In this document: positions 674 to 29,716 of the stretch, piece after piece
Layout: every line of letters starts with the position of its first letter
How positions within the stretch are numbered: position 1 is the first letter of the stretch
Source of the DNA: Ectocarpus siliculosus
Taxonomy: Eukaryota > Sar > Phaeophyceae > Ectocarpales > Ectocarpaceae
Reading direction: 5' to 3'
DNA length: 30,352 nucleotides
Assembly (NCBI GenBank): GCA_000310025.1
Contig: FN648731.1
Coordinates: forward strand, 34,442 to 64,793
Position numbers and translations under genes: made by a program
The notes under the pieces: generated by a model
Database searches by the model: none
What the model saw: only the letters and a program-made list of their open reading frames with translations
Told to the model about the DNA's origin: nothing

Positions 674-3600
674 ATCCCCCGAGCCCCCTGACGCTCAGCA
701 AGTCGCTGACGAAGCTCCAGGGCATAGTGGAGGCTTGCGACCCCAAGGTCATCCTAATCTCCGGGGATGTCAACCACCTGAGACTGGCGTCCAAGCTCAA
801 CTTTGTGTCGTCCGCGCGACGCCTGTGGCCCGACCTCCCGTACAAGGTCGCAAGATCATCAGGAGTTTCTCAGTGGGGGGGGCATCTCGAAGTGGCTCGG
901 GGGGGGGGGGGGCAACCCGGGCGGAAGGGGGTAGGGGTGGAGAGCTTTGACGAGGAGTCTCTGGGGGAGGGCGATGTGGCGTTTTTGCAGTTTACCTCCG
1001 GCAGCACGTCGGAGCCGAAGGGTGTGATGGTGACCTTCGGGAACCTGGGGCACAACGCTCGCTTCATCTCGCGCATGTCTGAGAAGGTATGTAGATTGTT
1101 GATGTTGCTGCTGTTGATGCTGCTGCTGCTGCTGCTGTTGTAGACTAAATAGGTCTGTGGTATGCAGAGAAGTAGTAGTAGTGGTAGTAGTAGTCGCACA
1201 GTTGAACCTCGGTGAAGGATACGCCTGGTTTTTTGCTAGAAAAAGTGTCCTCAAGCCGGGGAAGTGTCTTTAAGGTTGATACCCGTTCTCATGTTGTACA
1301 TTCTGCGAGCCACCATGCCCGTGAAAAAAGAAATTGCCCGCACCCGAAGGAGTTTCCTTAATTTTGTTGACCTTGATCGAGGCACGACTGCAGAAGTAGT
1401 AGTAGTAGTAGTCGGGTCGTTTGTGTCGCACTCTGCTGCCACGGTTAAGATTTTGCTATGTACATGTATTGGTGGTGCGGATGGGAGGGGTCTCGGTCCC
1501 TTGTGTACGTGTACAGTTTATCTCCCATCATGGCCCCCGTTTTTCTGCCAGACTTTTTCTCCCCATGGCGCTTCTTTCTTTTCGAACTACACGCACACGA
1601 GCTACATCGCAAACCACCATCTCCGTACCACCATCAAGATGGATATCGACACGCACGTTGCGCAATGCATGCGACGTGGAAACCCACGCGTACGCCGACT
1701 CCTTTCGCCCGGATGAAAAAAAAAATCGAAAATCGTAGTGGACGGACCTGATTCAGTGTTTGAAACCTATTCAGCCTTCGATAACACCAGAGCATTATCG
1801 GAAGGATTTTTTTTTTTTACAACTACTCAACGAATTAATCTCTATCTACAAATGAAAGAGTCTGGGATACATAAAACTAAACAGCATTGAATTAATAGCG
1901 TGTGCGGACACACCACCTGTGCTGCTAGTCCTCTCCGAGCAGCATACATACGGCGATAGTTCCCCTGTGGGAAACAGGCTCAGTGGGACGTCGGCGGGGT
2001 CTCCACCAGGAAGTCGGAGACGCTGGACCGTCCTCCCCTTGAAGCATTATTTTGGCAACATCGGCAGGAGATCCCACACCCGTATAAACGTTTGTCTGGG
2101 GGCGGGGACGTGCCCCGTCTCGCAAGCGGTACGGAAAGAATGCCAAGCGGCGAGCAGTATCCTCCCCCCCCCCCCCCCTCCATTTCTTTATTTTTGCGTG
2201 ACGAAGGAATGAAACCAACCTCGCTACACAAGCAAGCCAGGGGTGTGACTTGCCCCCAACCGCTAGCCCATGGCCTGGCTGTGGATTTCTCGCACACTCC
2301 CGCGAAGTGTGACGGCGAACTAGTGTCGTCGTGTTGTCCACAGCACAATCACATGACCGAACACCGGAAAACATTCTCCCTAACGTAACCCCCATCGCGC
2401 CTGCGCCCACCCTTGACAAACAACGCCGACAAAAAAACAGTCGTTCGAGTCGCGAGGGTTTTCTTTCTCCGGGCGAGCGGAGGGGGGGGGGGTCCGTGGT
2501 TTCTCCTGGCTACCCCAGTACCACGACCTGGGCCTAGTCATGTGCACCCTCACGCCCTTCGTGAGCGGCTGGCGCATGGGCTACATGTCTCCGCTGGACT
2601 TCGTGCGGAAGCCCCTCCTCTGGCTGCGGCTGCTCTCGGCCGAGAGGGCCATGTTCGGCTGCGCCCCGGATTTTTCGCTCAGGCTCTGCGTGCGAAAGTG
2701 GTGAGCTAGCTGTTGAACCTTTTTCGTGTGTTTGTTGTTGATCCTTCTTCTTGTTTCTTCAACGTGATACTGTACCTTCCCCGGCAACAGGCAAAATGGT
2801 GTATAGGTTGGGGGATTTGGTAGAGAGGTGTGTGTGTGTGTGTGTGTTTATTATCATTAACATCGACCGCGCTAACCGGCTGACCAATGAAAAGACGTCA
2901 GTCTTAGTGCGGTTGAAAACACTTGTTGTGTGTGTGTGTGTTTTCTCCAGGGCGGGGGCGGAATACTCTGCCCCATCTCTCGATTTCGGCGTTGATCCGG
3001 TTGATTGGCTGAAGTATGGGCAGAACAAAAAGTAGCACTGTGTTGGGGTTAGCGCGTTCAATGTTCAGGGCGGGATGGAAGCTAGGTTCACCAGCCTGAA
3101 TTTGCTTTCATATTCTTTCTTCTCCATTTGCTACGTAGTACTTCTTTCTCCTCACAAACGTTCGTCTCTCCTTTACCGATTTTCCGTCTTGTTGTTGCTA
3201 CAGGAACGAGGCCACTCCAGAGGTTCGAGCGTCCATGACCGACTCTGTGGACCTGAGTGCCTTGAACTGGATCCAGAACGGTGCCGAGCCCATCCGAGCC
3301 TCGTCGGTGAGACCATGGCATTAATGCTCCCAATATGGTGCTGGGTGGCATGGCATGCGGTTTGCGTTTGCCGTGGCTTCATCCTCTTGCGCGTGTAGCG
3401 TTTTACTCGTTCATGCACTCGTGATTTACCTTTTGTCCTGTGTCCCCCCCGGCTGGTGCGGACTGCTGGCGCAACACATGAAACGAAAGAAAAGCATTTA
3501 GAAATAACCTATATTTTCTGCTGTTTGAAGACAACCGAAACCGATCTTGTTTGTCATCCCGCGCCCTGCCCACCGCATTTTTTTAGCCACCTTCGACAAA

Positions 3601-29716: not shown

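Follow-up and report, generated by a model that had tools for sequence, protein, structure and literature searches.

Among the described systems that are close in layout to the gene reported here are the cyanobacterial olefin synthases (Ols). The KS, AT and KR domains of such synthases extend the chain and reduce it once. A FAAL activates the fatty acid and loads it onto the ACP, as outlined in the accessible part of a publication on FAAL and OLS steps (PMC11837247). Type I polyketide synthases (PKSs) are little known in seaweeds. The sole type I PKS that the 2015 survey of Shelest et al. lists for Ectocarpus siliculosus, EsiPKS1 on scaffold 520, is described in the accessible sections of that article as a fragment with one KS, which is truncated at the contig ends, was annotated at first as type I FAS and is called multimodular (PMC4661987). 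There it is also presented, without a product, as the first type I PKS in a macroalga, and the accessible main text makes no use of the words "olefin", "hydrocarbon" and "sulfotransferase" (PMC4661987). For the pelagophyte Chrysophaeum taylorii, which has many PKSs, the accessible part of a further study describes N-terminal adenylation domains on type I PKSs, which are also seen in other algal PKSs and of which none has been characterised (PMC10366177).

Here, a stretch of 30,352 nucleotides of Ectocarpus siliculosus DNA, in the following called the window (C198:34442-64793, FN648731.1), was analyzed together with the assembly it belongs to (189.5 Mb, 492 contigs). It contains a gene for a FAAL-ACP-KS-AT-KR-ACP synthase, which is probably EsiPKS1, judging by the genus, the status as sole type I PKS and the truncation in both. 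The earlier note on this DNA knew of no description of such a gene; a truncated type I PKS with one KS had been reported from Ectocarpus in 2015 (PMC4661987, accessible sections). EsiPKS1 was termed multimodular, whereas the window shows one extension module. Going by their description, the PKSs of Chrysophaeum taylorii resemble the window gene in having a ligase-type loading domain at the start. A literature search, which reached subscription journals to a small extent, gave no description of the gene as Ols. Regarding alkenes in Ectocarpus, nothing was found in the literature on Ectocarpus photodecarboxylase or brown-algal alkenes.

Gene Structure and Sequence Quality

The gene model was built by hand on the forward strand and comprises 35 exons between 674 and 29720, which are separated by 34 introns (Table 1). 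All acceptors (35/35) carry AG and all internal donors (34/34) carry GT. Apart from exon 18146-19996, all exons (34) are open over 29 kb. The start frame of this exon differs from its end frame, and the crossing was left as it is in the model. The apparent frame change is either a sequence error or a real lesion; a base-calling error is plausible because of the low-quality-looking sequence near the gap and the contig end.

Table 1. Features of the window gene and FAAL paralogues in the same genome (window positions, or contig:positions)
Feature	Position	Strand	Exons or matched pieces	Evidence
FAAL loading domain	674..7107	+	9 exons: 674-1086, 2483-2700, 3204-3306, 3917-4111, 4310-4488, 5327-5447, 5890-5982, 6520-6630, 6991-7107	AMP-binding 1.6e-39 (profile 82-384)
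Ala/Ser-rich linker and ACP1 (FDSITAEEF)	7651..8981	+	7651-8163, 8722-8981	PP-binding 9.1e-6
Ketosynthase (KS)	9290..15735	+	9290-9442, 10362-10551, 11591-11739, 12197-12410, 12846-12992, 13364-13477, 14096-14184, 14786-14833, first part of 15322-15911	Ketoacyl-synt N 1.1e-76, C 3.8e-42; Cys-His-His present
100-base N gap in the intron between exons 9290-9442 and 10362-10551	10035..10134	.		Sequence read
Acyltransferase (AT) with long Gly/Ser-rich insertion	15736..19575 (end approximate)	+	Remainder of 15322-15911, 16730-16896, 17263-17391, 18146-19996	Acyl_transf_1 2.4e-39; GHSLGE, AFHS
KR, structural half	19576..23141	+	End of 18146-19996, 21515-21746, 22505-22575, 22983-23141	By-eye assignment against Ols L079
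Apparent frame change in exon 23 (18146-19996)	19840..19880	+		Three-frame translation, phase of next exon
KR, catalytic half	23747..27225	+	23747-23905, 24263-24350, 25196-25390, 25769-25920, 26446-26578, 27110-27225	KR 4.5e-35; K, S, Y, N present
ACP2 and C-terminal tail	28045..29720	+	28045-28189, 28596-28700, 29412-29720	PP-binding 2.1e-7
FAAL paralogue	C5:1968888-1973442		7 matched pieces	Window-FAAL search
FAAL paralogue	C8:4397240-4401787		8 matched pieces	Window-FAAL search
FAAL paralogue	C30:650678-655401		7 matched pieces	Window-FAAL search

The N gap is bordered by two copies which are 79% alike (9680-9979 and 10139-10438). Since the left copy reads by eye as an error-rich start of exon 10362-10551, the gap probably arose during assembly, between ends that in fact overlap. 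At the 5′ end, the FAAL model begins approximately 100 residues into the domain, so that its N-terminal part is missing, and the region upstream of the window (C198:23761-34441) reads as N, possibly an assembly gap. When the N-termini of six bacterial FAALs were searched against C198:1-23760, the best match had an E of 0.29; the same six N-termini do touch the first exon of the window, with E from 4e-7 to 0.08. At the 3′ end, the contig stops at the last base of the window (C198:64793) and holds nothing further downstream. The last bases (30180-30352) are runs of G, C, and T resembling failed base calls, and the contig break may be of technical origin.

An intron repeat at 20057-20864 with 89-nt arms (20076-20164 and 20776-20864, 99% complementary) looks like a small mobile element, and related copies are located at 7142-7247 and 7164-7331. 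Also within an intron, a 193-aa open frame (20869-21450) carries a CxC...H...C pattern; by eye we take it to be similar to the tail of a non-LTR retrotransposon protein.

Domain Order and Active-Site Residues

The Pfam search was performed with the model minus the last 142 residues encoded by exon 18146-19996, whose frame is in doubt. It gave the order AMP-binding, PP-binding, ketoacyl-synt N and C, Acyl_transf_1, KR and PP-binding, with the two PP-binding matches at 9e-6 and 2e-7. Neither DH, ER, MT and TE nor sulfotransferase (ST) domains were found on the model at E up to 0.01. Owing to the long insertion in the AT, the Acyl_transf_1 match is confined to the first half of the profile (2-169 of 319). 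A search of the whole genome with PF08659 also picks up two exons of the KR catalytic half.

To check the active-site residues, the model was aligned to one Ols and to two synthases from Bacteroidota. In the FAAL, FTSGST, GRIKD and the lysine of SGK are in place, and both ACPs have kept their serine (FDS in ACP1, MDS in ACP2). The Cys-His-His triad of the KS is intact (DTACSSS, EAHGTGT, KSNIGH), and the AT has kept GHSLGE and AFHS, which we take to be motifs of the malonyl type. The LDD motif and the tryptophan of A-type KRs are markers bearing on the stereochemistry of the KR. The window KR lacks the LDD motif, which is present in the aligned Ols L079, and by eye it also lacks this tryptophan. 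Pfam order and alignment agree on a FAAL-ACP-KS-AT-KR-ACP gene with catalytic residues in place and neither DH nor ER, which confirms the description in the earlier note.

The solved structures nearest to the window FAAL are FAALs (best 1.6e-69), and the entries for malonyl-CoA synthetase and fatty-acyl-CoA synthase are weaker (5e-18 or worse). The feature of FAAL-initiated type I PKSs, a FAAL-class ligase followed by ACP and KS, is found within one gene model.

Bacterial Synthases With a Similar Domain Order

The bacterial comparison was based on the best 80 of at least 577 confirmed loci, which were chosen by likeness to the window KS, so that the architectures counted do not come from random sampling. 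Ols is represented by L079 from Xenococcus, which encodes FAAL-ACP-KS-AT-KR-ACP-ST-TE in one frame of 2854 aa. Its ST-TE part matches 4gbm (CurM sulfotransferase, 1.5e-105) as well as 4gox and 3qit, both entitled polyketide synthase. Used as a query with a limit of E 1e-40, this part had matches in 20 of the 386 cyanobacterial genomes searched, including the genome of L079 itself. Sixteen ST-TE regions were examined, and in eight of them (L117-L123 and L126) a single frame follows the Ols order, with the second ACP of L117 not scored. The order is split in L124, the FAAL is absent from the frame in L125 and L127, and no FAAL-PKS was seen beside the ST in L128-L132.

The six visible domains of the window match the first six of L079 one for one, as the earlier note had stated for Ols, and DH and ER were found in neither. 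The difference lies in the ST-TE end, which is present in Ols and not seen in the window, as well as in the 34 introns of the window gene and the LDD motif of L079 that its KR lacks. A frame with FAAL-ACP-KS was found 25 times, nine being Ols and 16 non-Ols, some of them cut by the locus end. FAAL-ACP-KS-AT-KR occurs in six of these 16 non-Ols frames (L027, L041, L053, L069, L093, and L102), three of which (L053, L069, and L093) were analyzed with Pfam, as was L051. L069 continues into a condensation domain. The Bacteroidota proteins L053 (2150 aa) and L093 (2145 aa) have the same six domains in the same order as the window, and nothing follows their second ACP. They differ from it in being bacterial and free of introns, with a FAAL about 30% identical to that of the window. 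The six-domain order is not diagnostic of Ols, and because non-Ols bacterial proteins share it, the match is insufficient to call the gene an olefin synthase.

Kinship of the FAAL and KS Domains

Trees were calculated with bacterial comparators only. The FAAL tree comprises 35 rows, with three of the 37 bacterial FAAL stretches (those of at most 350 aa) left out. Here the Ols FAALs form a clade with a support of 99/98, and the window stands outside of it on a very long branch (2.22), inside a wider set (95/87) that also holds Ols. The identity of the window FAAL is 33-37% to ten Ols FAALs and 40-41% to two planctomycete FAALs. For the KS, matches above 120 bits and 300 aa were used in two trees of 143 and 64 rows with SH-aLRT support, the smaller set being made up of the KSs of Ols, those that follow a FAAL, the highest-scoring of the rest and the three rows which lay closest to the window in the larger tree. 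In both trees the window KS, with an end branch of 0.95 in the larger one, joins L080, L028, and L030 (SH-aLRT 93 and 92) outside Ols. In BLAST, it is 43-51% identical to 11 ST-TE rows and up to 53.5% to many non-Ols KSs.

The grouping of KS and FAAL away from Ols, which the earlier note had named as evidence against its own proposal, is thus seen in the best trees, but AU tests of the window and Ols as one clade gave p 0.42 for the KS (64-row set) and p 0.063 for the FAAL. Kinship with Ols is not established: the trees lend it no support, and the AU tests do not reject it.

Nearer relatives of the window FAAL were found in the alga itself. A search of the genome with the window FAAL gave three more loci covering nearly the whole FAAL (Table 1), with 19 of the 22 pieces at 47-71% identity and the other three at 40, 40, and 44%. 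The matches break near the exon borders of the window gene. The first FAAL exon of the window is 48-51% identical to the paralogues and 35% to the best Ols. For two short FAAL exons the best Ols stretch reaches 71-72%, over 35 and 18 residues. Judging from these similarities, the genome has a family of four or more FAAL genes split by introns, of which the window FAAL is one, with C5, C8, and C30 as its nearest kin found. Unlike the contig of the window gene, these three contigs show no KS match; PP-binding was not matched on them either, in a search which also missed the two ACPs of the window. Weaker FAAL-like matches are located on C1 (2.60-2.61 Mb), C3 (0.872-0.878 Mb), C4, and C33.

The 3′ End of the Gene

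The last exon (29412-29720) closes after ACP2 with an in-frame stop (TAA, 29718-29720), beyond which the contig continues for 632 bases. An alternative donor, gtaagg at 29717, overlaps the TAA. With a score of 4.61 it lies above 4 of the 34 accepted donors (leave-one-out; median 8.67), and 6.1% of the 2048 GTs in the window score at least as high. Splicing at this site instead of the stop is possible but weak.

Neither ST nor TE is visible within the window, as the earlier note had stated for the ST-TE end, and the contig stops at the last base of the window. With the ST-TE part of L079 as query, no match was found in the Ectocarpus assembly at E up to 0.1; the same query matches at once in the genome of L079. 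The whole L079 protein recovered the FAAL, KS, and AT exons of the window and nothing in its ST-TE part at E up to 1, which is a weak negative because the window KR was missed as well and 17 of 42 candidates were scored. PF13469 gave seven matches in the assembly at E up to 0.01, of which six are C-terminal pieces only, and none on C198. A DNA search with 29412-30180, the last exon and its 3′ flank, matched the window alone and thus gave no further copy that would extend beyond the contig end.

Proposed Function and Alternative Readings

We read the locus, with a probability of roughly 0.8, as a nuclear brown-algal gene whose product is a type I PKS with a single module, which is primed by its FAAL and would make a beta-hydroxyacyl-ACP. 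The domain order, the active-site residues, the exon structure and the class of the FAAL by sequence are its observed basis. Going by this class, the FAAL would form a fatty acyl-AMP and hand the acyl chain to ACP1 without CoA. The AT would place a malonyl unit on ACP2, the KS would take the acyl chain from ACP1 and condense the two, and the KR would reduce the beta-ketone. As no DH or ER was found, the predicted product on ACP2 is a 3-hydroxyacyl chain that exceeds the starter by two carbons, after a presumed single round of extension. For its release, the protein may end at the TAA after ACP2 and be unloaded by another enzyme, or further domains may follow beyond the contig end. The term single module is drawn from the visible part and the KS matches at three loci, on a contig which is cut at the 3′ side. 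The missing FAAL N-terminus, the apparent frame break and the KR without LDD count against this reading, as does the fact that the gene was read from DNA alone. The 3-hydroxyacyl-ACP is a testable prediction of the model. The window would show the likely chemistry of the start and of the one visible extension of a seaweed PKS, to which the genome search adds a small family of FAAL genes.

It is unlikely that the gene encodes a larger FAAL-PKS with several modules, or a hybrid, of which the contig end has removed the rest. The short distance from the stop to the contig end, the usable donor overlapping the stop and the bacterial L027, L041, and L069, which continue with more modules or a condensation domain, would fit such an enzyme, but the donor beats few of the accepted ones and KS-N matches are confined to three loci in the assembly (C198, C1, and C20). 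That the gene is decaying or non-functional seems quite unlikely: the apparent frame break, the KR without LDD and the long end branches of KS and FAAL point in this direction, against which stand the open remaining exons with their AG/GT borders over 29 kb and the retained active-site residues.

We regard as very unlikely a true eukaryotic Ols with a missing 3′ ST-TE part, in which the 3-hydroxyacyl chain would be sulfated, hydrolysed and decarboxylated to a 1-alkene. It would account for the one-for-one match of the six domains and the lack of DH and ER; the contig stops before the region where the ST would lie, and the AU tests leave room for it. The in-frame TAA after ACP2 argues against it, as do the best trees, in which neither KS nor FAAL falls within Ols, the closer in-genome paralogues of the FAAL, the non-diagnostic domain order, the location of the PF13469 matches on other contigs and, as weak negatives, the two ST-TE searches of the assembly. 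The earlier note had proposed a single Ols-like gene in an alga with intron-rich nuclear genes. The nuclear style with 34 introns and the singleness hold, the gene being the only type I PKS found, whereas an Ols-like origin or product is not supported, given that no ST-TE was seen, that bacterial synthases without ST-TE share the domain order and that the FAAL is nearer to its paralogues in the genome. Highly improbable, finally, is a FAAL-PKS that was built from the alga's own FAALs, converged on the Ols layout and lengthens free fatty acids by one unit, possibly with an ST-TE beyond the contig. If true, this would be, to our knowledge, the first Ols-type route to 1-alkenes in a eukaryote.

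Other PKS and Carrier-Domain Matches in the Genome

The assembly contains nine matches to PF00109 at the three loci mentioned. The KS-matching exons on C20 look FabF-like by eye, the locus on C1 is known from PF00109, and the window gene is the only type I PKS found. Tandem PP-binding matches on C4 were considered as a continuation of the window gene and rejected, since the region reads by eye as adenylation-carrier-reductase. It is an intron-split gene on the minus strand of C4 (about 28-43 kb), in which, by eye, an adenylation domain is followed by a pair of carrier domains and, at the end, a reductase.

Three type III PKS matches were located on three contigs (C15, C37, and C18). Over 90 residues, the C15 exon shows no difference from a stretch of PDB chain 4b0n, the type III PKS enzyme of Ectocarpus siliculosus, which marks the genome as that of Ectocarpus or a very near relative. 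The C37 exon is less similar to 4b0n than the C15 exon.
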